From Azohydromonas caseinilytica (lineage in GTDB: Bacteria; Pseudomonadota; Gammaproteobacteria; Burkholderiales; Burkholderiaceae_C), in contig NZ_JABBFW010000001.1 in assembly GCF_012927045.1 (NCBI RefSeq), positions 186,001 to 250,000 on the forward strand: a stretch of DNA of 64,000 bases, given 5' to 3'. The position numbers and the translations under genes were made by a program. Under the pieces are notes generated by a model. That model did no database searches. It saw nothing but the letters and a program-made list of their open reading frames with translations, and had not been told where the DNA came from. Shown piece after piece: positions 1-29,801 of the stretch. Every line of letters begins with the position of its first letter. Position 1 is the stretch's first letter.

Positions 1-1396
1 GCGCGCGCGGCCCGAACTCCATGCGGCCCTGGAACCAGCCGATCACCAGGTCCTGCGCCAGCAGCTGCGCCGCTTCGGCGGCCACGTCGTCCACGCGGCG
101 GTAGCTGAGCTTGGCCCACTTGAGCAGCTGCTCGATCTCGTCGTCGCCGTAGCCCGGGCCCCAGTAGGCATGCGTCATGGACCAGTCCGAGCGCGCCAGC
201 ACCGTGGGCACGGCATTGGGCGCGGCGCGGCTTTCCAGCGCCACCTCGCGGCCGGTGGCTGACGGCGTCGAGGTCTGCGTCGCGGCGGTGGCCGTGGTCG
301 CCGCCAGCACGGCCACGGCGCCGGCGCGCTCGCGCGCGTCCACCCACAGCGCCGCGCCCAGCGCGGTGCCGGCGTCGCCCGCGGCGGGCTGCACCCAGAC
401 CTGGTCGAACAGGCCCGCGTCGCGCAGCCGCGCGTTCATCACGCAGTTCAGCGCCACGCCCCCGGCCATGGCCAGCAGCGGCTCGCCGCTGGCCTCGCGC
501 AGCCAGGCCGCGAGCTGCAGCGCCGAGCGCTCCAGCACCTGCTGCAGCGAGGCGGCCAGGTCCAGGTGCACCTGCTCCAGCGCCGCGCCGCGCTCGCGCG
601 GCGGCACCAGCGCGGCCAGGTCGATGCGGTCGATCTCGTAGCGCCCGTCCGGATGCACGCGCACCTGGCGCTGCAGGGCCTCGGCAAAGCGCGGCTGGCC
701 CAGCGCGGCCAGCGCCATCACCTTGTACTCATCGCTGCTGTGCAGGAAACCGAGGTGGCTGGTGACGCGCTCGTAGAGCAGGCCCAGCGAGTGCGGCATG
801 TCCACCTCGCCCAGCGGCCGGTACACGCCCTCGGCCCACAGGCCGTAGGCGGTGGTGGCGTCCTCGCCGCGGCCGTCCAGCGTCATCACCGCGCAGCGCT
901 CGAAGGGCGCGGCCAGGAAGGCGCTGGCCTGGTGGCAGAGGTGGTGGTCGATGTAGTGCCACTGCCAGGGCCCGTCGAAGCGGCAGCCCTTGAAGCGCTT
1001 TTTCAGGTGGTGCGGCGCGCCGTCGGCGAGCTGGCGCGGGGCGTTGCTGACGTAGGCGGCGAACAGCGGGTCCCAGGGGTTGTCCCAGCCCGGCGCGGGT
1101 TGCGCCGACGGTTGCAGCGGCAAGGTGATGGTGTCGCCCGAGAGCCGGCCGCGGATGAAGCGCTGCGGGTCGTAGCTGTAGGCCACGTGGTCCACCTGCG
1201 CCAGCGTCAGCCCGGCCTCGGCCAGGCAGTAGTCGATGGCGTGGTAGGGCAGCTCCCAGGCCGTGAACGGCAGGGGCCGCTTGCCATGCTTGATGCGCGT
1301 GAAGCGCTCCTCCTCCGCGGCAGCGACCAGCCGGCCGTCGTGCACGAGGGCGGCGGAAGAGTCGTGGAAGGCTGCGTTGATGCCGAGTGTGATCAT
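1..1396 (-). CDS. NodU/CmcH-type carbamoyltransferase, C-terminus cut by window edge
   Basis: Reading from the ATG at 1396 down to the left edge gives about 465 residues with no stop. The start MITLGINAAFHDSSAALV and the following AAEEERFTRIKH segment are typical of the NodU/CmcH O-carbamoyltransferase family, which moves carbamoyl from carbamoyl phosphate to a hydroxyl on a sugar or antibiotic. Further in are HHLCHQASAF and a GGVALNCVMN glycine-rich motif, and the last readable residues (GRMEFGPRA) begin the conserved C-terminal domain, so roughly 100 residues lie outside. The start overlaps the upstream glycosyltransferase stop as ATGA. Membership of a glycan operon suggests a surface-polysaccharide sugar as substrate; that is inference. 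Confidence 0.85.
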   Translation of the reverse strand, partial: MITLGINAAFHDSSAALVHDGRLVAAAEEERFTRIKHGKRPLPFTAWELPYHAIDYCLAEAGLTLAQVDHVAYSYDPQRFIRGRLSGDTITLPLQPSAQPAPGWDNPWDPLFAAYVSNAPRQLADGAPHHLKKRFKGCRFDGPWQWHYIDHHLCHQASAFLAAPFERCAVMTLDGRGEDATTAYGLWAEGVYRPLGEVDMPHSLGLLYERVTSHLGFLHSSDEYKVMALAALGQPRFAEALQRQVRVHPDGRYEIDRIDLAALVPPRERGAALEQVHLDLAASLQQVLERSALQLAAWLREASGEPLLAMAGGVALNCVMNARLRDAGLFDQVWVQPAAGDAGTALGAALWVDARERAGAVAVLAATTATAATQTSTPSATGREVALESRAAPNAVPTVLARSDWSMTHAYWGPGYGDDEIEQLLKWAKLSYRRVDDVAAEAAQLLAQDLVIGWFQGRMEFGPRA

Positions 1397-2559
1397 CCGA
1401 GTGCCGTGACGGGGTGGGGAATGCAGGGGCTGGCGGGGTGCAGCGGCACGCCCGGCAGGGTCCCCATGAGCTCCAGCGCGGCCTGGGCCACCTCCTGCGG
1501 CGGCACGCGCTCCAGGCAGTCGTGATGACGCTCGGGGCACACGCTCTTGAGGCAGTGGCGGCAGGGCACGGGATGGTTGAGCACACGCGCGCGCGCCTGC
1601 CAGGGCGTGTGCTGCGGATTGGTCAGGGCGTAGAGCACCACCACCGGCGCGTCCAGCGCCGCGGCCAGGTGCGCCGGCGCGCTGTTGTTGCACAGCGTGA
1701 CCTGCGCCCCGGCGATCAGCGAGGCCAGTTCGCCCAGCGACAGCTGCCCGGCCAGCGAGATCGCCGGGCTGCGCATGGCGGCCATGGCCTGCTCCACCAG
1801 CGGCAGCTCGTCCGGGCCGCCGCTGAACACGGCCTGGCAGCCGGTGGCGTCCACCAGCGCCTGCGCCGCCTGGCCGAAGCGCTCGGCCGGCCAGCGGCGC
1901 GAGGCGGCGGTGGCGCCGGGATGCACCACGATGTAGGGCCGCGTCAGGTCGCCGCCGGCGCACTCGAACTTGTGGCGCATGGTCAGCGCCTCTTCGACCT
2001 TGAAGCGGAACATCAGGCGCTGCGCATCGGCCTGCAGCCCGACGTGGTGCACCAGGTCGAGCTGGCGCTGCGCCTCGTGGCGCATGCCGTCGGAGGGCAC
2101 CTCGGTGTCGGGCACCCAGTCGGTGAGCAGCTCGTAGGGGTTCTCGCGGCTGTAGGCCAGGCGCAGCGGGATGCCCGCCTGCAGGCACAGCAGCGCCGCG
2201 GGCAGCGCGCTCTGGGTGCAGACGGTGAAGATCACCGCGGCGTCGAAGCGGCGCGATTTCAGCGCCTCGATCAGCCGCTCCTCGGCCTGTCCCGGCTCCA
2301 GCGCGCGCTCAAGCGCGGCATCGGGCCGCTTGACCCAGGGCGCGTCGAAGGCCAGCACCTCGTCCACGACCGGCACATGCGAGGCCAGCGCCGCGCCGGC
2401 GCGCGAGGCCAGCAGCGTGATGTGCGCCTGCGGCAGCGAGGCGCGCAGCGCCACCAGCGCGGGCGTGGTCATGAGCAGGTCGCCCAGGTTGTCCAGCCGC
2501 ACGGCCAGCACCCGCTTCACGGACTGCCAGCGGCGCTGGCGTTCGCAGGGCGCGCTCAT
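1393..2559 (-). CDS. Glycosyltransferase family 9 (heptosyltransferase-like)
   Basis: The product has 388 residues. The N-terminal RLDNLGDLLMTTPAL (residues 21-35) is the GT9 signature, containing the conserved Asp of the WaaF/WaaC family. HPGATAASRRWPAERF (213-228) and FSGGPDE (245-251) form the nucleotide-sugar half, and CNNSAPAHLAAALDAPVV (290-307) is the typical C-terminal motif. The Cys-rich stretch near 333-350 is common in family members annotated as heptosyltransferases. The ATG is shared with the stop of the upstream phosphatase gene (ATGA) and the stop overlaps the downstream carbamoyltransferase start. It probably adds a sugar to LPS core or another surface glycan; donor and acceptor cannot be read from the sequence. 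Confidence 0.85.
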   Translation of the reverse strand: MSAPCERQRRWQSVKRVLAVRLDNLGDLLMTTPALVALRASLPQAHITLLASRAGAALASHVPVVDEVLAFDAPWVKRPDAALERALEPGQAEERLIEALKSRRFDAAVIFTVCTQSALPAALLCLQAGIPLRLAYSRENPYELLTDWVPDTEVPSDGMRHEAQRQLDLVHHVGLQADAQRLMFRFKVEEALTMRHKFECAGGDLTRPYIVVHPGATAASRRWPAERFGQAAQALVDATGCQAVFSGGPDELPLVEQAMAAMRSPAISLAGQLSLGELASLIAGAQVTLCNNSAPAHLAAALDAPVVVLYALTNPQHTPWQARARVLNHPVPCRHCLKSVCPERHHDCLERVPPQEVAQAALELMGTLPGVPLHPASPCIPHPVTALG

Positions 2560-3191
2560 GCCGCCACCCCGCTCATCCGGCCCGTGCCTGCAGCGGCGCC
2601 GGTGTGTGCTTGCGTCGCAAAGCTCATGTCGTCGTTCTCCAGAATGAATCGGGCCGCGTCGTGCAGGTCCTTGGCGCGGTGCCGCGGCCGGCGCAGCGGG
2701 GTGAACTGCCACAGCGTCTCGTGGCCCACGTCCAGCAGCAGGCCGCGGCAGCCCGCGCGCTGCCCGGCCTCCACGTCGTTGAGGATGTCGCCCACCATCC
2801 AGGAGCGCGCCAGGTCCAGCCGCAGCTCGGCCGCGGCCCGCAGCAGCAGCCCCGGCGCGGGCTTGCGGCACGCGCAGCCGGCCTCGGGCGCATGCGGGCA
2901 GAAATAGAAACCGTCGAGCCGCACGCCGGCCTCGCGCAGCAGCCGCTCCTGCAGGGCCCGGCGCAGCGTCCCGAACTCGGCCGCGCTGAAGTACCCCAGC
3001 GCCAGCCCCGGCTGGTTGCTGATGACGACCAGCGCGTAGCCCGCGTCGCGCAGCCGCTGCAGCGCCGCCAGTGCGCGCGGCGTGAAGCGCAGCCGCGCGG
3101 GGTCGGCGCTGTAGGGCACGTCCTCGATGAGCGTGCCGTCCTTGTCCAGGAACACCGCCGGGCGCGGGGCCGCGGCGCCGTCAGGCCTCAT
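2556..3191 (-). CDS. HAD-superfamily heptose-bisphosphate phosphatase-like protein (GmhB type)
   Basis: This 211-residue protein has the HAD nucleophile motif DKDGT at 16-20 (Asp16 nucleophile, Asp18 acid/base), motif II SNQ at 58-60, Lys110, and the GD/ND acid pair near 135 and 139. The zinc-binding residues Cys98, His100, Cys106 and Cys108 (CPH...CAC) mark the GmhB/HisB-N subgroup, which dephosphorylates D-glycero-D-manno-heptose 1,7-bisphosphate or, in HisB, histidinol phosphate. A glycosyltransferase on either side favours a nucleotide-heptose role. The start at 3191 gives an ATGA overlap with the upstream glycosyltransferase; an upstream extension in the same frame would only read antisense through that gene. 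A C-terminal tail of about 45 residues is unusual in length. Confidence 0.8.
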   Translation of the reverse strand: MRPDGAAAPRPAVFLDKDGTLIEDVPYSADPARLRFTPRALAALQRLRDAGYALVVISNQPGLALGYFSAAEFGTLRRALQERLLREAGVRLDGFYFCPHAPEAGCACRKPAPGLLLRAAAELRLDLARSWMVGDILNDVEAGQRAGCRGLLLDVGHETLWQFTPLRRPRHRAKDLHDAARFILENDDMSFATQAHTGAAAGTGRMSGVAA

Positions 3192-4480
3192 GCCATGGCT
3201 CCCGGCTGCGACTTCAGCTCGGCAGCGGGCACGGCCGCCGCCTCGCGCGGGCGGCGCACGCCCTGGTACACGCCCAGCAGTTCGTCGGCCACGCGGTCCC
3301 AGGTGAACATGGCCCGCACGCGGCGGATGCCGGCACGGCCCAGCGCATGCGCCAGCACCGGGTTGTCGTGCAGATGCGCAATGCGCTGCGCCAGCGCCGC
3401 CGGGTCGCGCGGCGGCACCAGGAAGCCGGTGACGCCGTCGTCCACCGAATACTTGATGCCGCCCACGTCCGAGCCGATCACCGGCACCCCGCAGGCCATG
3501 GCCTCCAGCGGCGTGATGCCGAAGGGCTCGTACCAGGGCGTGGTCACGAACACGTCGGCCGCGCCGTAGCACTCGGGCAGCTGCTCGCGCCGGCGCTGGC
3601 CGGTGAACACCACCCGGTCCGCCACGCCGAGATCGTGCGCCAGCGCGCGCAGGCGGCCGATCTCGGGCGTGAGCCGCTCGTCGGGCTCGGCCGCGTCGCC
3701 ACCGACGATCAGCAGCTTGAGCTTGGGGACGTGCTGCAGCTGCGCCACGGCGCGCACCACGTTGTCCACGCCCTTGCGCGGCACCAGGCGACCGAGCTGC
3801 AGCACCACGAAATCGTCCGGCGCCAGGCCCAGGCGGCGCCGCGCGCGCGCCTTGTCCACCGGCGAGAACTCCTCCAGATCCACGCCGCAGGGCACGGTGA
3901 CGATGCGGCGCTCGTCGGCGCCGTACAGCCGCAGCAGGTCGAGGCGGTCCTGCGGGCACTCGGCCACCACGCGGTCGGCCAGGCGCACGATGCGCTCCTC
4001 GATGGCGGTGCGCATGGGCGGGAAGGCATCGGCGCTGCCCTGGTGCTCGCGCCGCACCAGGCCCAGCGCGTGGAAGGTCATGACCAGCGGCAGCCCGAAG
4101 CTGGCCTTCAGCCGCAGCCCCACCAGCCCGGACATGAAGAAGTTGGCGTGCACCACGTCGTAGGGCACGCTGTGCGCCAGCAGCTGCCGCGCCGCGCGCG
4201 TGAAGGCCGGCATGTGCGCAAGCAACTGCTCCTTGGGCACGAAATGCGCGGGGCCGGCCGGGATGTGCAGCACGCGCACGCCCGGGCGCAGGTCCACCGC
4301 CGCGGGCAGCGACGCATCGTCGCGCCGCGTCAGCACGTCCACATGGTGGCCGCGCTTGGCCAGACTGCGCGCCACATGCGCGACGTAGGTGTTTTGACCG
4401 CCCGAGTCGACCCCGCCGAGCGTGGCGAGCGGCGAGGCGTGTTCGCTGATCAAGGCGATGCGCAGCGGCGGAGAACTCAT
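3188..4480 (-). CDS. Group 1 (GT4-like) glycosyltransferase
   Basis: This 430-residue GT-B-fold enzyme opens with MSSPPLRIALISEHASPL and a GGVDSGGQNTYV loop like those of sucrose-phosphate-synthase-like GT4 enzymes. The C-terminal half carries QLGRLVPRKGVDNVV, the donor-binding EPFGITPLEAMACGVPVIGS with its E-x7-E arrangement, and a GGIKY segment. It is retaining and cytoplasmic by family analogy. It is the first gene of a four-gene minus operon in which every junction is an ATGA overlap. The gene upstream is divergent, across about 520 noncoding bases, so the promoter should lie in that gap. Confidence 0.88.
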   Translation of the reverse strand: MSSPPLRIALISEHASPLATLGGVDSGGQNTYVAHVARSLAKRGHHVDVLTRRDDASLPAAVDLRPGVRVLHIPAGPAHFVPKEQLLAHMPAFTRAARQLLAHSVPYDVVHANFFMSGLVGLRLKASFGLPLVMTFHALGLVRREHQGSADAFPPMRTAIEERIVRLADRVVAECPQDRLDLLRLYGADERRIVTVPCGVDLEEFSPVDKARARRRLGLAPDDFVVLQLGRLVPRKGVDNVVRAVAQLQHVPKLKLLIVGGDAAEPDERLTPEIGRLRALAHDLGVADRVVFTGQRRREQLPECYGAADVFVTTPWYEPFGITPLEAMACGVPVIGSDVGGIKYSVDDGVTGFLVPPRDPAALAQRIAHLHDNPVLAHALGRAGIRRVRAMFTWDRVADELLGVYQGVRRPREAAAVPAAELKSQPGAMA

Positions 4481-5000: not shown

Positions 5001-7985
<2,985 letters not shown>

Positions 7986-8009
7986 CCCGTGGAGAGCAGT
8001 GGCCGCAGG

Positions 8010-12946: not shown

Positions 12947-12998
12947 CTTCAGTTCCTGACCCCGTGCGGGGATGCCCCGACACCTGAGGAGAGCACTC

Positions 12999-14420
<1,422 letters not shown>

Positions 14421-16620: not shown

Positions 16621-17370
16621 TCAAGGCCAGCTGCTCTCGCGCATCGGGATCACCGTCACCTCCGGAATGACGGTTTCCTCGTCCTGCAGCAGGCAGAAGC
16701 GCACGGCCTTGGCCACCTGCACCGGGTCCTGGAGCACGCCGGGGTCGATGTCGGGGAAGCGGTCCAGCAGGAAAGGCGTGCGCATGCCGCCGGCCACCAC
16801 CGCCGTCACCTTGATGCCCCTGGGCCGCAGCTCGGCATGCAGCGCGTGCGACAGCCCCAGCAGGCCCCACTTGGTGGCGTGGTAGGCCGCGGCGTTGGGC
16901 CAGGCGCGCTTGGAGGCGGTGGAGGCGATGTTGACGATGTGGCCGCCGCCGCAGGCCGACTCGCGACCCATCAGCGCCGCGGCATGCTTGGCCACGTAGA
17001 ACGGGCCGCTGAGGTTGGTGCGCACTATGCGTTCCCAGTCGAAGCCGTGCAGCTCGGCGATGGGCACCGTGATGTCGATGGCGGCGTTGTTGACCACGGC
17101 ATCGAGGCGGCCGAAGCGGTCGTGCACGCGCTGCATCAGCTCCAGCACCTGCGTCTCCTCGCCGACGTCCAGCGGCTCGGCGATGGCCTCGATGCCCTGC
17201 CGGGCCAGCTCGGCCGCCTGCTCCTTGGCGCGCTCCAGCACCAGGTCGGCCAGCACGACCGTGGCGCCCTCGGCGCCCAGCACCTGCGCGATGGCGGCGC
17301 CCAGGCCGCGCGAGCCGCCGGTGATGACGATGCTGCGGCCCTTGAGGGCATTGCCGGGGGGGAAAGTCAT
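16621..17370 (-). CDS. SDR-family NAD(P)-dependent oxidoreductase
   Basis: The 249-residue classical short-chain dehydrogenase has the cofactor motif TGGSRGLGAAIA (about 18-29), an ADL motif suggesting NAD preference, NNAA (about 90-93), and the catalytic Ser/Tyr/Lys in NIASTASKRAWPNAAAYHATK. The substrate is unknown. CGGAGG precedes ATG 17370. It follows the unknown 168-residue gene on the same strand by 77 bases, and is probably co-transcribed from the ABC fusion gene. Confidence 0.85.
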   Translation of the reverse strand: MTFPPGNALKGRSIVITGGSRGLGAAIAQVLGAEGATVVLADLVLERAKEQAAELARQGIEAIAEPLDVGEETQVLELMQRVHDRFGRLDAVVNNAAIDITVPIAELHGFDWERIVRTNLSGPFYVAKHAAALMGRESACGGGHIVNIASTASKRAWPNAAAYHATKWGLLGLSHALHAELRPRGIKVTAVVAGGMRTPFLLDRFPDIDPGVLQDPVQVAKAVRFCLLQDEETVIPEVTVIPMRESSWP

Positions 17371-17447: not shown

Positions 17448-17954
17448 TCAGCCGCCGGCGTTGAGCTGGCGCTTCTCCAGCGCCGCGGCATGGCGCTGCT
17501 TGGCGATGGCGCGCAGGTTGGCGGCCAGCGCGGTGGCAAAGGCTTCATCGAACCAGGGGAAGGCGCCGCTGGCGGCCACGACAATGCCGTCCAGGCAGAC
17601 GCTGCCCCACAGCAGGCTGTCGCCCTCGCGCAGCCGGTGAGGCTGCAAGGCCTGCAGCGCATGGGTGTCGCCGCGGCTCCAGGCCAGGCGCGCCTTGGCG
17701 CGGGCGAAGCCGGCGTAGTCCGCATCCCAGCGGCTGCGGTCGCCCACGGCGTGCTCCAGCAGGATCGCCTCCTCGAACGGGCAGTCCGCCGGCGTGAGCG
17801 CTGGGTCCATCACCACCAGGTAGAAAAAGCCGCAGCCGCTGACCTGCGGGTCGGCCATGGCCGGCTCGATCATGGGAAGCGTCATGGCCAGCGCCTGCTC
17901 GGCGGCGTGGCGGTCGGCGAAATGGCTGCCGCGGCGGGGGGCTTGTTTGTCCAT
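17448..17954 (-). CDS. Conserved-looking protein of unknown function
   Basis: The 168-residue product is soluble, with no signal peptide. Its C-terminal half (LWGSVCLDGIVVAASGAFPW followed by two helices) loosely recalls the GlcG/HbpS fold, but the match is too weak to name. The start at 17954 (MDKQAPRRGSHF) sits 37 bases after the ABC fusion gene stop. A longer in-frame start at 18038 would run into that gene. Codon use matches its neighbours. Role unknown. Confidence 0.6.
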   Translation of the reverse strand: MDKQAPRRGSHFADRHAAEQALAMTLPMIEPAMADPQVSGCGFFYLVVMDPALTPADCPFEEAILLEHAVGDRSRWDADYAGFARAKARLAWSRGDTHALQALQPHRLREGDSLLWGSVCLDGIVVAASGAFPWFDEAFATALAANLRAIAKQRHAAALEKRQLNAGG

Positions 17955-17991: not shown

Positions 17992-20832
17992 CTACACCTC
18001 GATGGGGGGCGATGGCGGCCCGGTGCCCTCCGCCACACCCTGCGCGCTTGACAGCGGCCGCCCGATCTCCAGCAGCTCCGTGAGCAGCCGCTGCGGCTGG
18101 GCCGGCTTGGACAGGTGGGCGTGGAAGCCGGCGGCCAGCACCTGCGCCCGCACCTCCGGGCCGGTGAAGCCCGACAGCGCCAGCGCCGGCAGCCGCTGCG
18201 CCACCGGCACGCCGCGGCGCGATTCGAGCTGGCGCAGCGCGCGGATGAACTGCAGGCCGTCCTCCCCGCCCAGCGCGATCTCGCTGAGCAGCCGCTGCGG
18301 CCACATCGCGGTGGGATGGCGCTCCAGCCACTGCAGCGTCGCGCCGGCGCTGTCGAACAGCAGCACGTCGGCGCCCGACCCTTCCAGCAACTGCTGCAGC
18401 GCCAGGCGCGCCTCCGGGCGCGGCTCCAGGCACAGCACGCGCAGCCCGGCCAGCACCGGCAGCGGGGGCGCCTCGGCCGGGTCCTCCACCAGCCCGGGCA
18501 CCGTGTCTTCGTCCTGCGGACCGGCCGCGGCCACCGGGCGCAGCGGCAGCTCCACCACGTAGCGCAGCCCGTGCGAGGCGCTGGGCGGGTCGATGCTGAA
18601 GCGCCCGCCCTGGCGCTCCACCGTGGAGCGCAGCGTCAGCGGGTCCAGCGGCGTGTCCAGGCCGAAGGGCAGGCGCAGCGGCGCAAGCTCGTCTCCGGCC
18701 GCCGCCGTGCCGGCCTCGGGCGCGCCGGGCGAGGCCAGCGCCGGCACGGCATGGCGCCCGTCGCCGATGGTCAGCCGCGCCAGCTCGCCCTGGCGCTCCA
18801 GCCGCACCTCGATGCGCCGCCCGCGCGGCGTGGCCTGGATCGCGGCCACGCACAGCTCGCGCGTGAGCTGCGCCAGCGTGGTGGGGTCGCCGGTGACGCT
18901 GGCGTTGCCCAGGTCGATGTGCGCCGACAGCCGCACCTGGCGCGCGTCGAGCTCGGCGGCGAGGCCGTCCACCGCCTGGGCGATGAGCACCGCCAGGTTC
19001 ACCGGCTGGCGCGCCATGCGCCGCTCCAGCTTCTCGAACTGCTCCTGCTGCAGCTGCAGGTTCCAGAGCTGCGCGTACAGCCCCTCCTTGGCCAGCAGCT
19101 CCTCGTGGCGGCCGCGCTCGACGATACGGCCGCGGTCCATGACCACGATCTGGTCGGCGCCGACGATGGTGGAGAGGCGGTGGGCGATGATCAGCGTGGT
19201 GCGCCCCTGCGCGATGCGATCCAGCTCATGCTGGATGGCGCGCTCGGCGCGCGTGTCCAGCGCTGAGGTGGCCTCGTCGAAGATCATCAGCGGCGGGTTC
19301 TTGAGGAAGGCGCGCGCGATGGCGATGCGCTGCTTCTCGCCGCCGGAGAGCTTCATGCCGCGCTCGCCCACCACGGTGTCGTACTGCTCGGGCAGCGACA
19401 TGATGAACTCGTGCACCTGCGCCGCCTGGGCCGCGGCAATGATGTCCGCCATGCCCGCGCCCTGGCGCCCGTAGCCAATGTTGTAGGCGATGGTGTCGTT
19501 GAACAGCACCGTGTCCTGCGGCACCACGCCCACGGCGCGGCGCAGCGAGTCCAGCTGCACGTGCTTGAGGTCCTGCCCATCCACCGTGACGCGGCCCTGC
19601 TGCGGGTCGTAGAGGCGCAGCAGCAGCCGCGCCAGCGTGCTCTTGCCCGAGCCGCTGCCGCCCACCACCGCCACCGTCTGCCCGGCGCCGATCTCCAGGC
19701 TCAGGTCGTGCAGGATCGGCCGACCCGGCTCATAGCCGAAATGCACCTGCTCGAAGGCCACCGCGCCGCCGGCCAGCTTCAGCGGCGGCGCCTCGGGCGC
19801 GTCCTGGATCTCCACCGGCTGCTGCAGCAGGCCGAACAGCTTCTCGGTGTTGACCAGCGCGTCGCGCGCCTCGCGGAACACGAAGCCCAGCGCATTGAGC
19901 GGCAGGCAGATCTGGATGATGTAGCTGTTGACCAGCACCAGGTCGCCCACCGTCATCTGGCCGCGCACGGTCTGCTCGGCGGCCAGCAGCATCACCGCCG
20001 CGACGCCGGCGGCGATGATGGCGCTCTGGCCGATGTGCAGGCCCGAGAGCGCGCGCTGGTTGCGCACGCCCTCCTCCACCCAGGCGCCCAGCACGCTGGC
20101 GTAGCGCTGGCGCTCGAAGCCCTCGCGCGCATGGGTCTTGACGGTCTCGTAGTTGAGCAGCGTGTCCACCATGCGGCCGTTGGCGCGCGAGTCCATGTCG
20201 TTGACGCGGCGCTGGCGCAGCGCGCGCGTGGCCGTCTTGGCGGTGGTGAAGGCGGCGTAGACGAAGAACGTCACCATGATCACCAGCGTGAACCACAGGC
20301 TGTAGCCCGCGGCCATCACCGCCAGCACGGCGGCGAACTCCACCAGCGTCGGCACCACCGTGAACAGCCCCGAGCCCAGCAGGAAACCCACGCCTGCCGT
20401 GCCGCGCTCCACGTCGCGGATGAGCGCGCCGGTGTTGCGCTGCACGTGAAAGCGCGGGCTCAGGGACAGCAGGTGCGCGAAGCAGCGCTCGGCGAAGTCG
20501 GTGACGGTGGACAGCGTCACGCGCGCGAACACCAGGTCGCGCAGCTCGGTGAACAGCGTGCCGGCAAAGCGCAGCAGCGCGTAGCCCAGCAGCAGGAACA
20601 CCGGCAGCACCAGCACCGTGGCCACGCCGCGGGTGGTGGAGGTGGTGAGCGAGGCCGGCTCGCTGAAGCGGTCGATGACCTCCTTGAGCAGCAGCGGCAC
20701 CGCCACGGCCGCCAGCTTGGCCGCCACCAGCAGCGCCATGGCCAGCAGGGTGCGGTTGCGGTGGCGCCAGGCCGCCTGGGCCAGGCCGACGAACACGTGG
20801 GCTTTGCCGTTGCCTGGAGGGGTGTCTGCCAT
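17992..20832 (-). CDS. Atm1-like ABC exporter fused to degenerate kinase ATPase and receiver domain
   Basis: The product has 946 residues. Residues 1-340 are an ABC exporter membrane domain of Atm1/HMT1 type (NTGALIRDVERGTAGVGFLL, NYETVKTHAREGFE). An intact nucleotide-binding domain follows: GGSGSGKST with Lys397, LSGGEKQRIAIARA, MIFDEATSALD, AHRLST. After a short coiled linker, residues about 620-780 resemble a histidine-kinase HATPase, but the N-box reads RELCVAAIQATPRG and no DxGxG box remains. Residues about 800-930 are a receiver in which the phospho-acceptor position is Glu851 (SEIALGGEDG), while Lys909 is kept. There is no HisKA. ATG 20832 lacks a clear ribosome site; GTG 20910 is an alternative. 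Divergent from the small basic gene. Confidence 0.85.
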   Translation of the reverse strand: MADTPPGNGKAHVFVGLAQAAWRHRNRTLLAMALLVAAKLAAVAVPLLLKEVIDRFSEPASLTTSTTRGVATVLVLPVFLLLGYALLRFAGTLFTELRDLVFARVTLSTVTDFAERCFAHLLSLSPRFHVQRNTGALIRDVERGTAGVGFLLGSGLFTVVPTLVEFAAVLAVMAAGYSLWFTLVIMVTFFVYAAFTTAKTATRALRQRRVNDMDSRANGRMVDTLLNYETVKTHAREGFERQRYASVLGAWVEEGVRNQRALSGLHIGQSAIIAAGVAAVMLLAAEQTVRGQMTVGDLVLVNSYIIQICLPLNALGFVFREARDALVNTEKLFGLLQQPVEIQDAPEAPPLKLAGGAVAFEQVHFGYEPGRPILHDLSLEIGAGQTVAVVGGSGSGKSTLARLLLRLYDPQQGRVTVDGQDLKHVQLDSLRRAVGVVPQDTVLFNDTIAYNIGYGRQGAGMADIIAAAQAAQVHEFIMSLPEQYDTVVGERGMKLSGGEKQRIAIARAFLKNPPLMIFDEATSALDTRAERAIQHELDRIAQGRTTLIIAHRLSTIVGADQIVVMDRGRIVERGRHEELLAKEGLYAQLWNLQLQQEQFEKLERRMARQPVNLAVLIAQAVDGLAAELDARQVRLSAHIDLGNASVTGDPTTLAQLTRELCVAAIQATPRGRRIEVRLERQGELARLTIGDGRHAVPALASPGAPEAGTAAAGDELAPLRLPFGLDTPLDPLTLRSTVERQGGRFSIDPPSASHGLRYVVELPLRPVAAAGPQDEDTVPGLVEDPAEAPPLPVLAGLRVLCLEPRPEARLALQQLLEGSGADVLLFDSAGATLQWLERHPTAMWPQRLLSEIALGGEDGLQFIRALRQLESRRGVPVAQRLPALALSGFTGPEVRAQVLAAGFHAHLSKPAQPQRLLTELLEIGRPLSSAQGVAEGTGPPSPPIEV

Positions 20833-20921
20833 CGCCGCGCGGCGGCAAGCCGAGTGCCCAGCCCCCGAGGGCACGGGCCTTGCCAGGATGCCGGCCTGAC
20901 TTGTCTTCACAGGAGTCCCGC

Positions 20922-21175: not shown

Positions 21176-21661
21176 TCACTCCAGCGGCGCCGCCTTGTCC
21201 GTCTGCTCGGCGATGGCCTCGCGCGGGTCGCCCTCGCGCTTGAGCTGCTGCTGCAGCCCGTGCATCTGCTCGCCCAGCGTGCTGCGCGCCATGGGCTCCA
21301 GCAGCTGCTTCACCTTCGGGAACAGGTGCTCCTCCTCTTCCTTGTGGTGATGCTCGGCCTGCTCCTTGAGCACGTGGAATTTGGCCTCGAAGCTGGGGTC
21401 GTCGGGCGACAGCGCCAGCAGGTCGGCCATCACGCGCTTGAGCGAGAGGTGCTCCTCCAGCGACTCCAGCAGGATGTCCTCGGTGCGGTGCGCCTTCACG
21501 GCCGGATAGAAGATCTGCTCCTCCGAGCTGAGGTGCACCGTGAGCTCGTCGCCCACGCGCTTGAACAGCGCCTCGCGCTGCCAGGCCTCGGCCTCCATCC
21601 AGGCCTTCATCAGCGCCTCCAGGCTGCGGTGCTGGCCGGTGAGCAGTTCAATGGCGTCCAT
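21176..21661 (-). CDS. Hemerythrin (HHE) domain protein
   Basis: The 161-residue four-helix protein has the HHE-type iron ligand pattern: His10 in TGQHRSLE, HLSSEEQIFYP, EEHLSLKRVM, and HHHKEEEEHLFPKV. Such proteins bind a di-iron centre and act in oxygen, NO or peroxide sensing or iron handling. The start at 21661 is preceded by AAGGA. It is divergent from the FMN reductase gene. A second, membrane-tailed hemerythrin lies 2 kb away. Cytoplasmic, since no signal peptide is seen. Confidence 0.85.
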   Translation of the reverse strand: MDAIELLTGQHRSLEALMKAWMEAEAWQREALFKRVGDELTVHLSSEEQIFYPAVKAHRTEDILLESLEEHLSLKRVMADLLALSPDDPSFEAKFHVLKEQAEHHHKEEEEHLFPKVKQLLEPMARSTLGEQMHGLQQQLKREGDPREAIAEQTDKAAPLE

Positions 21662-21817
21662 GGCAGTGTGTCCTTTTGAGGTGGTCGGTCGATGCGGGCC
21701 AGCTTGGCAGCCGGCATGCCCACGCCCGGCTGGAGGGAGTTCCGGGCGCGGTACGGGCGTGCCGCTTGCCCACCGCGCGGCAACCCGCGGCACCGGCCGC
21801 GACCGGAGCACGTCACC

Positions 21818-23362: not shown

Positions 23363-23426
23363 CGGACGTGCGCGCACGGGAATGCGGCTTGCCCCCCGTG
23401 AGGCTCACTTCCCGGAGGCCCTCGTC

Positions 23427-24017
23427 ATGAACCAGTTCCTGAACAAGCTCTCGCCCAGCATCACCAACATGATCCGCATGGATCACACCCATGTGCTGGC
23501 CACCTTCCACCAGTACGAGGTCGACACCCCGCCCAAGACCAAGCAGGCCCTGGCCAAGACGGTGTGCCTGGCGCTGGAGATCCACGCCCAGCTGGAAGAG
23601 GAAATCTTCTACCCCGCCTTGCGCGAGGCGCAGAGCGACAACGCGGTGCTCGACAAGAGCGTCCCGGAGCATGACGAGATGCGCACCCTCATCGCCCGGC
23701 TGCGCACGCTGGACCCGACCGACCCCGAGCACGACCGTGTCTTCATGTCGCTGATGCGCGCCGTGATGCACCACGTGGCCGACGAGGAGACCACGCTGCT
23801 GCCCCAGGCCGAGCTGGGCCTGGCCGACCGCCTCAACGAGCTGGGCGCCAAGATGACCAAGCGCCGCCTGGAGCTGACCGCGCCGCATGCCGGCGAGATC
23901 GCCGCCAACACCGTGCGCACCATGCCCGCCAGCTCCATGGCGCTGGCCGCCGGCGCGCTGCTCATGGGCGGCTACATGCTCAAGCAGACCTTCCGCCACC
24001 GCCGCCACATGGGTTGA
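23427..24017 (+). CDS. Hemerythrin domain protein with C-terminal membrane tail
   Basis: Residues 1-140 of 196 carry the HHE pattern: RMDHTHVLATFHQYE, LEIHAQLEEEIFYPA, VPEHDEMRTL, MHHVADEETTLLPQ. The last 35 contain a hydrophobic helix (MALAAGALLMGGYMLKQ) and a basic RHRRH end, a C-tail anchor orientation with the di-iron domain in the cytoplasm. CGGAGG precedes ATG 23427. A clear terminator follows. Possible role in oxygen, NO or iron handling at the inner membrane. Confidence 0.85.
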   Translation: MNQFLNKLSPSITNMIRMDHTHVLATFHQYEVDTPPKTKQALAKTVCLALEIHAQLEEEIFYPALREAQSDNAVLDKSVPEHDEMRTLIARLRTLDPTDPEHDRVFMSLMRAVMHHVADEETTLLPQAELGLADRLNELGAKMTKRRLELTAPHAGEIAANTVRTMPASSMALAAGALLMGGYMLKQTFRHRRHMG

Positions 24018-24739: not shown

Positions 24740-25216
24740 TTACAGAAACCGCTCCAGCAGCTTCTTGGACGCCTTGTCCAGCGCGAAGCGGTCGGCCAGG
24801 AACTGCACGCCGTCGGCGCTGGTGATCAGCAGCAGCGTCCCGCCGGGCAGGCGGCGGATGTCCTCCTCGGCCTTGAGCACGAACCGCGCCGTGCCGCGGT
24901 CGGTGCGCACGCGCCAGGTGCTGGGCGTGGCGAAGCTCGACACCGACTCCAGCTGCTCGATGCGCGGCATGAACTCGCGCAGCGCCAGCTCCTCCTCCAC
25001 CAGCACGCGGGCCGCGGGCGTGAGCGCATCCATGCGGTCCACCCAGGCCAGTTCGTGGCCGTCGGGCCCCACCAGCGAGAGGCCCTCCTGCGGCGCGGCG
25101 ATCGGGAAGGCGCGCACCGGCGTCACGCCCACATGCTCGCGCCCGGCCGCGTCGGTCAGCACCAGGCGGCCGAAGGCGTTGCGCGAGAGGCGGAAATCCT
25201 CGTTCTTGGCATCCAT
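24740..25216 (-). CDS. Cyanophycin-associated DUF1854 protein
   Basis: The 158-residue soluble protein is of DUF1854 type, with FRLSRNAFGRLVLTDAAG at the start, a central YxGVxPVRAFPI-like strand (VGVTPVRAFPIAAP) and a LLITSADGVQFLADRF ending. Family members are regularly found beside cphA with an ABC transporter, and databases label them as cyanophycin metabolism-associated; their biochemistry is not known to me. It starts three bases after the ABC transporter stop, so the two are co-expressed. Confidence 0.85.
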   Translation of the reverse strand: MDAKNEDFRLSRNAFGRLVLTDAAGREHVGVTPVRAFPIAAPQEGLSLVGPDGHELAWVDRMDALTPAARVLVEEELALREFMPRIEQLESVSSFATPSTWRVRTDRGTARFVLKAEEDIRRLPGGTLLLITSADGVQFLADRFALDKASKKLLERFL

Positions 25217-25219
25217 GGC

Positions 25220-27481
25220 TTAGACCTCCCCGGTCTGGCGCGCCAGATGCGCCTCCACGGCGCGCGGCGTCTGCGGCTCGGTATCGACGTTGCGCGCCTG
25301 CGCCTCGTACAGCCGCCAGTAGGCGCCCTGCTTTTCCATCAGCTCGTCGTGCGGGCCCACTTCCACCACGCGGCCGCGGTCCATCACCACCAGGCGGTCG
25401 GCCTTGCGCAGCGTCGAGAGGCGGTGCGCGATGGCGATGGTGGTGCGGCCCTGCACCAGGTTGTCCAGCGCCTTCTGGATTTCGCCCTCGGTCTCCGTGT
25501 CCACGCTGGAGGTGGCCTCGTCGAGGATGAGGATGCGCGGGTCGATGAGCAGCGCGCGCGCGATGGAGATGCGCTGGCGCTCGCCGCCGGAGAGGCCCTG
25601 GCCGCGCTCGCCCACCAGCGAGTCGTAGCCGTGCGGCAGGCGCAGGATGAACTCGTGCGCGTGCGCCGCGCGCGCCGCCGCCACGATCTGCTCGCGCGTG
25701 GCGTCGGGCCGGCCGTAGGCGATGTTCTCGGCGATGGTGCCGAAGAACAGGAAGGGCTCCTGCAGCACCAGGCCGATGTGGCGCCGGTAGTCGGCCACGG
25801 CGAAGCGGCGGATGTCGGTGCCGTCCACGCGGATGGAGCCGTCGGTGACGTCGTAGAAGCGGCAGATCAGGTTGACCAGCGTGCTCTTGCCCGAGCCGCT
25901 GTGGCCGACCAGGCCGATCATCTCGCCGGGGCGGATGTCGAGGTCCAGCCCGCGGATGACGCCGCGGTTGCCGTAGCGGAAGGTCAGCCCGCGCATCTCG
26001 ATGCGGCCCTGCACCGCCGGCAGCGGCACCGGGTTGGCCGGGTCGGGCACGTTCGAGACATGGTCCAGGATGTCGAAGATGCGCTTGGCGCCGGCGGCGG
26101 CCTTCTGCGTCACCGACACGATGCGGCTCATCGAGTCCAGCCGCGAGTAGAAGCGGCCGATGTAGGCGATGAAGGCGGTGAGCACGCCCACCGTGATCTC
26201 GTTGCGGCTGATCTGCCAGATGCCGAAGGCCCACACCACCAGCAGCCCGATCTCGGTGAGCAGTGTCACCGTGGGCGTGAACAGGCTCCAGGTCTTGTTG
26301 AGCCGGTCGTTGACCTCCAGGTTGTGGCGGTTGGCGTCGCGGAAGCGCTGCGCCTCGCGCGCCTCCTGCGCGAAGGCCTTGACCACGCGCACGCCGGGAA
26401 TGGTGTCGGCCAGCACGTTGGTGACCTCGGACCAGACCCGGTCGATCTTCTCGAAGCCCGTGCGCAGCCGCTCGCGCACCGCGTGGATGAGCCAGCCGAT
26501 GATGGGCAGCGGCACCAGCGTCACCAGCGCCAGCCAGGGGTTGATCGAGAACAGGATCGCCGCCGTCATGGCGATCATCAGCACGTCGGTGGCGAAGTCG
26601 AGCGCGTGCAGCGACAGGAAGACGTTGATGCGGTCGGTCTCGGAGCCGATGCGCGCCAGCAGGTCGCCGGTGCGCTTGTTGCCGAAGTAGTCCAGCGACA
26701 GTGTCAGCAGGTGCTCGTAGGTGGTGGTGCGCAAATCCGCGCCAATGCGCTCGCTCACCAGCGCCAGCAGGTACGTGCGGGCCCAGCTCAGGCCCCAGGC
26801 CAGCAGCGCCGAGCCCAGCAGCCCGGCCAGCAGCAGCATCACCAGGCCGGTGTCGATCTGCTGCCCGTTCTGGAACGGGATCAGCACCCGGTCCATCAGC
26901 GGGATGGTCAGATAGGGCGGCACCAGCGTCGCCGCGGTGGAGGCCAGCGTCAGCACGAAACCCAGGAACAGCCGGCCCTGGTAGGGCCTGGCGAAACGCC
27001 ACAGCCGCAGCAGCACCCAGGTCGAGGTGGGCTTGCGGGGCGCCTTGGCGGCGTGGTCCTCGGCCTCCTCGTCCGCCGCCTCGTCGTGCTCCTCGGCCAG
27101 CATGCCGGCGCGCCGGGCCTGCTGGCGCTCGAAGGCGGCCATGAACTGCTGCGCCGCCGGCCCCTGCGCCAGCGTGAAGTGCCACTGCGCCAGGCGCCGG
27201 TGCGCGTCCAGCAGTTCCAGCGTGCCCACGCCGGCGTGGTCGCTCAGGCGCAGCGCGAGGTCCCGGGTCAGCGGCCAGTCGAGCCAGCGCCCGTCCGGGA
27301 GCGCCGCCTGCAGGGTGCGCTCGGTGAGCACCAGGCCGGCGTCGGTAAAGCGCAGCTGGGCATCGAGGTCAACCTGCAGCGTCGCCAGCACGTTGTCGCC
27401 AGCATCGAGGCGGGAAGGCAAGGCCCCGCGCCAAGCGGCGCCAGCCTCACCGGACAAGGGAGCGGAGTGTGAATGTGACAT
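25220..27481 (-). CDS. Cyanophycin-associated ABC transporter, fused membrane and ATPase domains
   Basis: The product has 753 residues. An unusual soluble N-terminus of about 150 residues, ending in a Glu/Asp/Ala-rich linker, precedes an ABC exporter membrane domain with six helices (about 175-470). The ATPase is intact: GHSGSGKSTL, LSGGERQRISIARA, LILDEATSSVD, AHRLST. This is a type IV exporter half-transporter, probably a homodimer. The partner DUF1854 gene lies directly downstream and the cyanophycin synthetase genes are divergent, 145 bases away. The cargo is unknown. ATG 27481 has no obvious ribosome site. Confidence 0.88.
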   Translation of the reverse strand: MSHSHSAPLSGEAGAAWRGALPSRLDAGDNVLATLQVDLDAQLRFTDAGLVLTERTLQAALPDGRWLDWPLTRDLALRLSDHAGVGTLELLDAHRRLAQWHFTLAQGPAAQQFMAAFERQQARRAGMLAEEHDEAADEEAEDHAAKAPRKPTSTWVLLRLWRFARPYQGRLFLGFVLTLASTAATLVPPYLTIPLMDRVLIPFQNGQQIDTGLVMLLLAGLLGSALLAWGLSWARTYLLALVSERIGADLRTTTYEHLLTLSLDYFGNKRTGDLLARIGSETDRINVFLSLHALDFATDVLMIAMTAAILFSINPWLALVTLVPLPIIGWLIHAVRERLRTGFEKIDRVWSEVTNVLADTIPGVRVVKAFAQEAREAQRFRDANRHNLEVNDRLNKTWSLFTPTVTLLTEIGLLVVWAFGIWQISRNEITVGVLTAFIAYIGRFYSRLDSMSRIVSVTQKAAAGAKRIFDILDHVSNVPDPANPVPLPAVQGRIEMRGLTFRYGNRGVIRGLDLDIRPGEMIGLVGHSGSGKSTLVNLICRFYDVTDGSIRVDGTDIRRFAVADYRRHIGLVLQEPFLFFGTIAENIAYGRPDATREQIVAAARAAHAHEFILRLPHGYDSLVGERGQGLSGGERQRISIARALLIDPRILILDEATSSVDTETEGEIQKALDNLVQGRTTIAIAHRLSTLRKADRLVVMDRGRVVEVGPHDELMEKQGAYWRLYEAQARNVDTEPQTPRAVEAHLARQTGEV

Positions 27482-27626
27482 GGGCTTTGAGCGCCCCGGC
27501 GGACGCCGGGGGCGCAGGATTCTCGCGCAAGCCGGTATCTGTACCGGTCCGGGGCAGGCCCGGTGCCGGGACCATTCGCCGCGAGCGGCACAATCCCGCA
27601 CTCGACCGGGACAGCATTAACTGACC

Positions 27627-29801
27627 ATGAGCGCCAAGAACGACATCCGGCTGCTGCGCATCAACCACCTGCGCGGGCCCAACATCTGGACCTACCGACC
27701 GGCCCTGGAGGTCTGGCTGGACCTCGGTGAGCTGGAGGACTATCCCTCCAACCTGCTGCCCGGCTTCACCGACCGGCTGCTGGGCCTGCTGCCCAACCTG
27801 ATGGAGCACCACTGCGGCGTGGGCGAGCGCGGCGGCTTCGTGGAGCGGCTGCGCGAGGGCACCTGGGCCGGCCACATCCTGGAGCACGTCGTCATCGAGC
27901 TGCTCAACCTCGCCGGCATGCCCACGGGCTTCGGCCAGACGCGCAGCACCTCGCAGCACGGCGTCTACCGCATGGTGTTCCGCGCCCGCGACGAGCAGGT
28001 GGCGCGCGCCGCGCTGGCCCAGGGCCACGCGCTGCTGATGGCGGCCATCAACGAGCGGCCCTTCGACGTCGAGGCCGCCGTCAACGTGGTGCGCGAGGAG
28101 CTCGACGACTGCTACCTCGGCCCCAGCACCGCGGCCATCGTGGAAGCCGCCACCGAGCGCCGCATCCCGCACATCCGCCTCAACAGCGGCAACCTGGTGC
28201 AGCTGGGCCATGGCAAGCGCCAGCGCCGCATCTGGACCGCCGAGACCGACCGCACCAGCGCCATCGGCGAAGGCATCGCCGGCGACAAGGATTTGACCAA
28301 GACGCTGCTGGCCGCCTGCGGCGTGCCGGTACCCGAGGGCCGCGTGGTCGAGAGCCCGGCCGAGGCCTGGGATGCCGCCGAGGACATCGGCGTGCCGGTG
28401 GTGGTGAAGCCCTCGGACGCCAACCACGGCCGCGGCGTGTCGCTGGAGCTGATGGAGCAAGCCGACATCGAAGCCGCCTTCGGCATCGCCGACGCCGAAG
28501 GCTCGGAGGTGATCGTCGAGCGCTACGTGCGCGGCAACGAGCACCGGCTGCTGGTGGTGGGCGGCAAGCTCGTGGCCGCCGCGCGCGGCGAGAGCCTGTG
28601 GATCACCGGCGACGGCGAGAGCACCGTGGTGCAGCTCATCGACAGCCAGCTCAACACCGACCCGCGCCGCGGCGAGACCGAGGACCTGCCGCTGGAGACC
28701 ATCCGCCTGGAGCGCGAGCCCGTGATGCGGCAGCTGCTGCAGCGCCAGGGGCTGGACGGCGACTCCGTTCCCGCCGCCGGCCGCCGCGTGCTGGTGCAGC
28801 GCAACGGCAACATGGCTTTCGACTGCACGCACGAGGTCCATCCCGAGGTTGCCGCGATGGCGGTGCTGGCCGCCAAGGTGGTGGGCCTGGACATCGCCGG
28901 CATCGACCTGGTGGCCGAGGACATCTCCAAGCCGCTGGAAGCCCAGGGCGGCGCCATCGTCGAGGTCAACGCCGGGCCCGGCCTGTTGATGCATTTGAAA
29001 CCCGCGGTGGGCACGCCGCAGCCGGTGGGCCGCGCCATCGTGGACCACCTCTTCGCCGAGGGCGAGAGCGGGCGCATCCCCATCGTCGGCGTGGCCGGCA
29101 CGCGCCACACGCACACCGTGGCGCGGCTGGTGGCCTGGCTGCTGCACCTGCGCGGCCAACCCGTGGGCCTGGCCTGCCGTGACGGTCTGTTCATGGAGAA
29201 CCGCCCGGTGCAGGGCGGCGACTGCGCCCACTGGGAAGCCGGCCACCGGCTGCTGATGAACCGCCGCATCGAGGCGGCCGTGATCGAGAACGGCCCGCTG
29301 GCCATCCTGCGCGACGGCCTGCCCTACGACCGCTGCCACATCGGCATCGTCACCGACGCCGAAGGCGCCGACACGCTGGCCGAGCACGACATCCGCGACG
29401 CCGACCAGATGCCCAAGGTGCTGCGCACGCAGATCGACGTGGTGCTCGAAGACGGCGTGGGCGTGCTCAACGCCGCCGACGAGCGCGTCGCCGCGCTGGC
29501 GCCGCTGTGCGACGGCGAGGTGATCCTGTACGCGCCGGACCCGGCCAACGCCGCGCTGGCCGCGCACGTGGAAGCCGGCGGCCGCGCCGTGCGGCTGCAG
29601 GGCCGCAGCGCCGAGCTGCTGGCGCCGGACGCGCAGCCGCAGCGCATCGAGCTCAGCGCCTGGGGCGAAGCCACCCGCGCCGAGGCCGTGCTGCCGGCCG
29701 TCGCCGCCGCCTGGGCGCTGGGCGTGGCCCCGGCCCTGATCCGTGCCGGCATCGAGACCTTCGATGCCGAGCTCGCGCGCAACCCGAACCCGACCCGCTG
29801 A
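27627..29801 (+). CDS. CphA-prime: cyanophycin synthetase-like protein with dead Mur-ligase P-loop
   Basis: The 724-residue product shares the cyanophycin synthetase layout: an N-terminal CphA domain, an ATP-grasp domain (AGDKDLTKTLLAACGVPVPEG, VVKPSDANHGRGVSLEL, VNAGPGLLMHLKP), then a Mur-ligase-like domain. In the latter the ATP-binding GTNGKT is replaced by GTRHTH at 491-496, with no Lys, and the domain is about 130 residues shorter than in CphA. It should therefore add Asp or a dipeptide through ATP-grasp but not Arg. Its stop overlaps the cphA start (TGATG). A role beside full CphA is inferred. Confidence 0.88.
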   Translation: MSAKNDIRLLRINHLRGPNIWTYRPALEVWLDLGELEDYPSNLLPGFTDRLLGLLPNLMEHHCGVGERGGFVERLREGTWAGHILEHVVIELLNLAGMPTGFGQTRSTSQHGVYRMVFRARDEQVARAALAQGHALLMAAINERPFDVEAAVNVVREELDDCYLGPSTAAIVEAATERRIPHIRLNSGNLVQLGHGKRQRRIWTAETDRTSAIGEGIAGDKDLTKTLLAACGVPVPEGRVVESPAEAWDAAEDIGVPVVVKPSDANHGRGVSLELMEQADIEAAFGIADAEGSEVIVERYVRGNEHRLLVVGGKLVAAARGESLWITGDGESTVVQLIDSQLNTDPRRGETEDLPLETIRLEREPVMRQLLQRQGLDGDSVPAAGRRVLVQRNGNMAFDCTHEVHPEVAAMAVLAAKVVGLDIAGIDLVAEDISKPLEAQGGAIVEVNAGPGLLMHLKPAVGTPQPVGRAIVDHLFAEGESGRIPIVGVAGTRHTHTVARLVAWLLHLRGQPVGLACRDGLFMENRPVQGGDCAHWEAGHRLLMNRRIEAAVIENGPLAILRDGLPYDRCHIGIVTDAEGADTLAEHDIRDADQMPKVLRTQIDVVLEDGVGVLNAADERVAALAPLCDGEVILYAPDPANAALAAHVEAGGRAVRLQGRSAELLAPDAQPQRIELSAWGEATRAEAVLPAVAAAWALGVAPALIRAGIETFDAELARNPNPTR

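Follow-up and report, generated by a model that had tools for sequence, protein, structure and literature searches.

An Atm1-like ABC exporter of Azohydromonas and its relatives with a HATPase-like domain and a receiver at its C-terminus

What use has a membrane exporter for the rear half of a hybrid histidine kinase, and can that half still switch? The question is raised by a gene of Azohydromonas caseinilytica on the minus strand of a 64,000-nucleotide stretch of the genome (hereafter the window; positions are counted from its first letter). The gene, at 17992-20832, encodes in a single protein an ATP-binding cassette (ABC) exporter, a HATPase-like domain and a receiver domain. An earlier note, made from the sequence alone, had proposed that an Atm1-type transporter took up a hybrid-kinase C-terminus without HisKA as a fixed regulatory or docking module with a phosphomimetic-like receiver. 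Our analyses support the uptake, and the fusion is conserved; we regard the tailed exporters as a distinct Atm1-like ABC exporter subfamily with a probably regulatory tail, neither kinases nor standard Atm1 proteins.

Domain layout and conservation of the fused protein

The coding sequence is one uninterrupted open reading frame (ORF) of 946 codons, with its ATG at 20832 and its stop codon at 17992; the frame stays open further upstream, with a GTG at 20910. Pfam matched ABC_membrane to residues 29-309 (E = 7e-30), ABC_tran to 374-523 (6e-36) and Response_reg to 799-919 (2.6e-10), and HATPase_c gave a sub-threshold match at 648-692 (E = 0.006). HisKA had no Pfam match in this protein, nor in the 55 tails compared below. 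All motifs of the exporter's nucleotide-binding domain (NBD) are present (Table 1). The receiver has Glu803-Pro804 where Asp-Asp is normal, Glu851 where Asp is normal, Ser887 and Lys909.

The AlphaFold model of the whole protein has a mean pLDDT (predicted local distance difference test score) of 85, and in it helix 585-607 passes straight into the HATPase-like domain. Modeled alone, the tail forms a HATPase-like fold and a receiver fold with a mean pLDDT of 86, residues about 691-727, where the ATP lid would be, being of low confidence. The top Foldseek match of the tail model by E-value is the hybrid kinase ShkA (6qrj; E = 1e-11), though its TM score across both domains is just 0.30; kinase catalytic domains and receivers rank next. 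The top structural matches of the full-length model are NaAtm1 and other Atm1-family exporters. Thus, the reading frame, Pfam and the models bear out an exporter fused in frame to a HATPase-like domain and a receiver without HisKA.

The tailed exporter was found in all four Azohydromonas genomes drawn, that is, in the window and in australica, lata and aeria (L002-L004), in 15 of 200 genomes of a family draw and in 7 of 399 genomes of an order draw. We also scanned 84,980 species with patterns built from the tail alignment, which are therefore biased toward tailed genes, and kept the best 80 of 372 confirmed loci. In 54 of these 80, exporter, HATPase-like domain and receiver share one frame. 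These loci span Burkholderiales, Rhodocyclales and one Solimonas, their genera including Azohydromonas, Rhizobacter, Methylibium, Pseudorhodoferax, Aquabacterium, Roseateles/Pelomonas/Mitsuaria, Pigmentiphaga, Bordetella, Castellaniella, Ralstonia, Cupriavidus, Methyloversatilis, Azoarcus and Aromatoleum. In a plasmid collection, seven records, from Burkholderia multivorans, Cupriavidus, Paraburkholderia and Caballeronia, matched at least 80% of the query at a single place; the annotated ones label the tailed gene merely as an ABC protein. The same junction is thus open in four genomes of the genus and, in independently assembled genomes, at over 50 additional loci, which refutes a frameshift or misassembly joining an exporter gene to a kinase gene; we found nothing in favor of such an artifact and give it practically no weight. 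Homologs that end near residue 600, named in the earlier note as a warning sign, do exist. They are tailless Atm1-type exporters with about 49-56% identity over the core and a glutathione-type pocket, as well as three tailless exporters with the pocket of the tailed type (described below), and they mark the tail as an addition rather than an artifact.

To compare the tails, we aligned 55 tailed sequences, the window protein among them, with 25 hybrid kinases that the scan had also yielded. The Mg-ligand Asn of the N-box is present in 5 of 55 tails versus 25 of 25 hybrid kinases, the second Gly of G1 in 6 of 55, and 47-48 of the 55 have a gap in place of the G2 region. The G1 Asp persists in 33 tails; in the window tail, which by alignment has no N-box Asn, G1 glycines or G2, this Asp (residue 691) is the sole ATP-site motif residue left. 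Loss of the ATP-binding motifs, noted before for this one protein, therefore holds across the sequences compared. Tails of Pigmentiphaga and Aromatoleum (L089, L090, L115, L112 and L113) retain the N-box Asn with the other ATP-site motifs gone and, as judged from the alignment, represent intermediate states of decay.

The receiver tells a different story. Pfam detected Response_reg in all 55 tails and HATPase_c in 28 (E up to 0.01), and Lys is retained in 55 of 55 receivers, with the Asp-Asp pair and acceptor Asp also retained in 51. The four exceptions are the Azohydromonas sequences (Glu-Pro, Glu, Lys); the counts cover these 55 sequences, apart from six additional tailed proteins of the exporter-core search described below. 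With the phosphorylation residues complete in 51 of 55, the usual module should be able to accept phosphate, and the retention of these residues while the ATP-site motifs are gone suggests that selection has kept a phospho-switch and not a kinase. Preservation of the site in 51 of 51 members outside Azohydromonas, alongside decay of the kinase motifs, likewise argues that the receiver is a working input. A phosphomimetic receiver is therefore rejected as a family trait, and a fixed module is not supported as a general description: Glu851 is as reported, but it is limited among the 55 receivers to Azohydromonas, where it is a genus-wide derived change. Because the Mg-binding Asp pair is lost too, the Glu may not mimic phosphorylation; the Azohydromonas receiver may be locked in either state.

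Pairwise NG86 estimates of omega (dN/dS, the ratio of nonsynonymous to synonymous rates), which draw on few sequences with low dS, were 0.16-0.32 for the HATPase-like domain among the four Azohydromonas sequences, 0.17-0.34 for the membrane domain, 0.07-0.17 for the NBD, 0.30-0.48 for the receiver and 0.46-0.86 for the linkers. Three Rhizobacter sequences with canonical receivers gave 0.21-0.29 for the receiver. By these values the HATPase-like domain of Azohydromonas keeps pace with the membrane domain, the receiver changes somewhat faster and the linkers are less constrained.

Substrate pocket, gene neighborhood and cl2

The window protein has the half-transporter fold and all NBD motifs of Atm1/ABCB7-type exporters, and its pocket departs from theirs. 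We mapped the pocket residues of NaAtm1, its Gln included, to residues 203, 207, 266, 269 and 320 of the window protein by spacing and by alignment with AtAtm3. At these positions the window protein reads R-Q-H-Q-R, and all 55 tailed exporters read R-[Q/E]-H-Q-R (Q in 52, E in 3). Among 28 tailless candidates, one of which (L172) gave no frame, 25 of the 27 aligned read R-R-N-Q-R, the other two being distant exporters; among the 25 is the tailless Atm1-type exporter of the window genome itself (G000:C1:9400-11103, L163). Structural work names Arg, Arg, Asn and Arg as the glutathione contacts of Atm1-type exporters (PMC6424863). Two of these four are replaced in all 55 tailed exporters (R to Q/E and N to H), so that the label "Atm1-type" given to the protein earlier needs qualifying.

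An exporter-core search of 399 genomes of the order was meant to offset the tail bias of the scan; as taken from the genome handles, the core, tail and cl2 searches used the same draw. We read the 29 best of 78 non-window matches for tail and pocket. Six are tailed with the new pocket, 20 are tailless with the glutathione pocket and three (L179, L181 and L184) are tailless with the new pocket. The other 49, judged by frame length alone, have open frames of 594-722 residues, too short for a tail. In a maximum-likelihood tree the tailed rows lie on one side of a branch (SH-like approximate likelihood ratio test, SH-aLRT, 84, and 83.5 with the tailless kin included), as a separate branch beside those of the tailless Atm1-type exporters; L179, L181 and L184 group together (support 98) next to the tailed ones. 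Because these three exporters share both the pocket and the gene cluster described below, the tail is an add-on to the exporter. The simplest order is that the pocket changed first and the tail was added later; alternatively, the tail may have been lost in the three.

The tailed exporters sit in a conserved gene cluster. Neighboring genes outside annotated records were called with a simple GC3 script, and cluster members were identified by neighbor clustering and by a tblastn count with nine reference proteins within up to 6 kb. The cluster encodes two GT4 glycosyltransferases, a GT9 heptosyltransferase-like enzyme, a GmhB-like HAD phosphatase, a NodU-like carbamoyltransferase, a short-chain dehydrogenase (SDR), a UDP-glucuronate-decarboxylase-like enzyme, a PIG-L deacetylase and a small protein, cl2. 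At least one of the nine genes is present at 45 of 54 tailed loci and at least two at 35; of the 26 other loci of the scan, one has cluster genes (L145), and its frame, cut at a contig end, resembles a piece of a tailed gene. The annotation of four plasmid records agrees with this context, a fifth being unannotated. The cluster also surrounds the three tailless new-pocket exporters, where five of its nine genes are present and neither the carbamoyltransferase nor cl2 was found in the ~20 kb read. In the window, cl2 and the SDR directly follow the exporter, four further members lie at 1-4480 (Table 1), and more lie to the left of the window in the same genome. This conserved neighborhood points to a product or intermediate of the cluster pathway as the putative substrate of the exporter.

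One cluster GT4 (L152:4787-6196; window 3188-4480) is MshA-like in its L152 copy (E = 9e-94, below the equivalog cut-off), and together with the PIG-L deacetylase it gives the cluster a faint resemblance to low-molecular-weight thiol pathways. A mycothiol-like pathway was considered and dropped, the profile match being below cut-off.

cl2 (~170 residues) matched no NCBIfam model in 3 copies, no PDB entry, and no Pfam family below E = 0.03 in 9 copies scanned; a kinship with HbpS was rejected, as single members gave E-values of just 0.03-0.05 and there was no PDB match. The protein follows the tailed exporter closely. In the order draw, cl2 was matched at E up to 1e-40 in 7 of 7 tailed genomes (all below 1e-60) versus 1 of 392 others, and in the family draw in 9 of 15 versus 1 of 185 (G147), with Fisher p-values of 3e-14 and 4e-11, respectively, not corrected for kinship. 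Relaxing the cut-off to 1e-6 left 7 of 7 and 1 of 185 unchanged and raised the other two counts to 2 of 392 and 10 of 15. The two genes need not be linked: they lie on different contigs in G551, about 400 kb apart in G304 and about 60 kb apart in G525. The three genomes whose exporters are tailless with the new pocket gave no cl2 match, indicating that cl2 follows the tail and not the exporter core. In G247, where no tailed exporter was found, a 40-residue cl2 match (1.5e-10; L225, about 7879-7998) lies near glycan-cluster-like genes and is possibly a remnant.

With regard to phospho-donors, a motif scan detected a kinase-like ORF at 7 of 54 tailed loci; among 15 longer tailed stretches (20-31 kb), 6 had one. 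We claim no enrichment from these counts, and a linked cognate kinase was rejected. The window itself holds a hybrid histidine kinase at 4980-7985, between the glycan genes and the exporter, with a HELRNPL H-box, N- and G-boxes and a receiver. An NtrC-like sigma-54 response regulator with its own receiver lies near the exporter at 12972-14420; no NCBIfam model scored above cut-off for it.

Table 1. Coordinates of the exporter, its domains and the cluster genes in the window
Feature	Position	Strand	Basis
ABC exporter, HATPase-like domain and receiver, single 946-residue protein	17992..20832	-	ORF, Pfam, orthologs
Transmembrane domain, residues 25-336; pocket positions R203, Q207, H266, Q269, R320	19825..20760	-	Pfam, alignment, AlphaFold model
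NBD, residues 355-584; Walker A Lys397, signature Ser496, Walker B Glu520, H-loop His551	19081..19770	-	
Exporter C-terminal helix, residues 585-607, leading into the HATPase-like domain	19012..19080	-	AlphaFold model
HATPase (Bergerat-like) fold, residues 608-765; without N-box Asn, G1 glycines, G2 and lid	18538..19011	-	
Receiver domain, residues 796-922; Glu803-Pro804, Glu851 (18280-18282), Lys909	18067..18447	-	
cl2, ~168-residue protein, candidate tail partner	17448..17954	-	
SDR of the conserved glycan cluster	16621..17370	-	
GT4 glycosyltransferase of the cluster, 58% to the Rhodocyclales copy	3188..4480	-	
HAD phosphatase (GmhB-like), start approximate	2556..3170	-	Family named from Rhodocyclales copy
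GT9 heptosyltransferase-like enzyme, start approximate	1393..2601	-	Family named from Rhodocyclales copy
Carbamoyltransferase (NodU-like), runs off the left window edge	1..1396	-	Family named from Rhodocyclales copy

Upstream of the exporter, the window carries a hemerythrin HHE protein gene (21179-21670, just upstream), an ORF that we read as encoding a hemerythrin-like protein (23382-24014) and a group of cyanophycin genes. The NCBIfam matches for this group are a DUF1854 protein (24743-25216), a cyanophycin-associated ABC transporter (25223-27484) and a cyanophycin synthetase (27627-29801; above the subfamily-model cut-off and below the equivalog cut-off). In the neighbor clustering the DUF1854 gene occurs in the window, L066 and L067 only, and a cyanophycin link to the exporter was accordingly rejected as genus-local.

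Proposed mechanism and rival explanations

We favor, at a probability of about 0.5, a reading in which the protein would be a dedicated exporter of the cluster product. Phosphorylation of its receiver would gate it by way of the dead HATPase-like domain and the C-terminal helix, and in Azohydromonas the gate would be locked. The exporter would serve a product or intermediate of the heptose/carbamoyl glycan cluster, and its tail would stem from the C-terminal half of a hybrid histidine kinase that was captured, probably in a single event. In the dimeric exporter the C-terminal helices may occupy the place of the HisKA helices of a kinase, with the dead HATPase domain acting as a rigid coupler and the receiver as the input. 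The C-terminal helices of Atm1 exporters extend to the opposite NBD (PMC6424863). As the corresponding helices of the tailed protein continue into the kinase-derived part where HisKA would lie, a change in the receiver could pass through the dead HATPase domain to the NBD dimer. In most species the phosphate on the receiver Asp would come from a histidine kinase whose gene usually lies elsewhere, and the receiver, once changed, would act through the HATPase-like domain and the C-terminal helix to speed up or block the ATPase cycle, with cl2 as a putative binding partner in gating. In Azohydromonas, the replacement of Asp by Glu and of Asp-Asp by Glu-Pro would preclude the usual phosphorylation, leaving a module that is locked yet retained. 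More tentatively, the whole may be a two-component pathway with transport as its output, in which an ABC exporter gated by aspartyl phosphorylation of its receiver and its family-specific partner cl2 serve a widespread heptose/carbamoyl glycan pathway and the switch is naturally locked in Azohydromonas.

Several observations weigh against this reading. None of the nine cluster genes was found at 9 of 54 tailed loci (some cut by contig ends), and in two longer stretches, L154 (Aromatoleum) and L209, cl2 is the only one of the nine in about 20 kb. No kinase is reliably linked to the tailed exporter, the 7 of 54 loci noted above being roughly at chance level by our own estimate, for which no control was run. 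The three tailless exporters with the same pocket and cluster indicate that the tail is not required for transport. Support for a single origin of the tail is not strong, with SH-aLRT values of just 84 and 83.5. The cl2 co-occurrence tests are uncorrected for phylogeny; moreover, 6 of 15 tailed genomes of the family draw have no strong cl2 match (one has a 46-residue match and one genome is 76% complete), and G585 (L224; 6e-45) and G147 (L219) have full-length cl2 matches and no tailed exporter that we could find. Finally, the faster evolution of the receiver in Azohydromonas than in Rhizobacter makes some relaxation possible.

One rival is a docking scaffold, in which the dead HATPase-like domain and the receiver form a platform on which cl2 and/or glycosyltransferases meet the exporter, whether phosphorylated or not. 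Azohydromonas could then drop the phospho-site yet keep the tail. Indeed, the tail is retained under purifying selection with a non-phosphorylatable receiver in four Azohydromonas species, and cl2 tracks the tail even when unlinked. However, a pure scaffold would have no need of the full phosphorylation site that 51 of 51 receivers outside Azohydromonas retain, and we regard a scaffold as unlikely, if deserving of attention. Retention of that site in many genera also speaks against the idea of a phosphate sink or relic, a leftover of the fusion with little effect on transport that would have decayed first in the HATPase-like domain and then in the Azohydromonas receiver. Stepwise motif loss across the tails fits such a course, as does the omega of the Azohydromonas receiver, which exceeds that of the NBD and that of the Rhizobacter receivers; yet omega stays below 0.5 even in Azohydromonas, and we consider a relic distinctly improbable.

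Signaling might also run in the opposite direction, the exporter sensing its substrate and using the tail to report its conformation to a histidine kinase in another protein, much as transporters signal to kinases in CbrA and Ks-Amt5. The tail is homologous to hybrid-kinase C-termini, and known transporter-kinase fusions act as sensors (PMC5764959; PMC7096432). Without HisKA and an ATP site, however, the tail cannot itself start a phosphorelay, and a partner kinase is not regularly linked; such a reverse transceptor thus seems to us improbable.

Comparison with known systems

The closest relatives of the exporter part are the Atm1/ABCB7 exporters (NaAtm1, 4MRN; CtAtm1; AtAtm3; Rhodobacter PexA), which share the half-transporter fold, the C-terminal helix and the ABC motifs; in structural alignments the window protein is 42-44% identical to NaAtm1, CtAtm1 and AtAtm3. 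It differs from them in about 350 extra residues (the HATPase-like domain and the receiver), in its glycan-cluster neighborhood and in its altered pocket. The tail, in turn, has the same order of HATPase fold and receiver as hybrid kinases (ShkA and cyanobacterial and Methylococcaceae kinases), and aligns with the cyanobacterial and Methylococcaceae proteins from their PVNL-like motif onward, a motif that in hybrid kinases follows HisKA. Unlike these kinases, the tail has no HisKA, N-box Asn, G1 glycines, G2 or lid, and its N-terminal partner is an ABC exporter. The receiver residues of hybrid kinases (Asp-Asp, acceptor Asp and Lys) are incomplete in the window protein and complete in 51 of 55 tailed sequences.

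In CbrA/CrbS (SLC5) and Ks-Amt5, a transporter fold likewise precedes kinase modules in one polypeptide (PMC5764959; PMC7096432; PMC5715377). These proteins are sensors with working kinase modules, whereas here a predicted dead kinase part and a terminal receiver follow an ABC exporter with intact ATPase motifs; with its ATP-site motifs missing, the kinase part would not be catalytically competent. LacS, in which an EIIA-like phospho-accepting domain is fused to a lactose antiporter, shares with the tailed exporter the combination of transporter and phospho-domain. A 2023 review treats LacS as the sole bacterial case of a transporter controlled by direct phosphorylation. The donor of LacS is HPr; the tailed exporter instead carries an aspartyl receiver on an ABC exporter, where phosphorylation is predicted. 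The folds of the regulatory domains of the ABC importers MetNI and ModABC are not known to be related to HATPase and receiver. These importers likewise carry a soluble C-terminal regulatory domain on the NBD, but their domains bind substrate for transinhibition (PMC10710835). Among the matches listed by literature searches aimed at such a fusion, in a collection with few subscription journals, we met no combination of ABC exporter, dead HATPase and receiver.

Response regulators are best known as gene switches; if our reading is true, a receiver has here been placed directly on a pump. The family offers natural controls, namely, tailless relatives that share the pocket, a genus whose receiver cannot be phosphorylated in the usual way and a candidate partner, cl2, that tracks the tail, and it points to a conserved heptose/carbamoyl glycan cluster. 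Transporter-kinase fusions that act as sensors, and a phospho-accepting domain on a transporter (LacS), were already known; the pocket change, the linkage to the glycan cluster, the tracking of the tail by cl2 and the tailless kin with the same pocket are new here.

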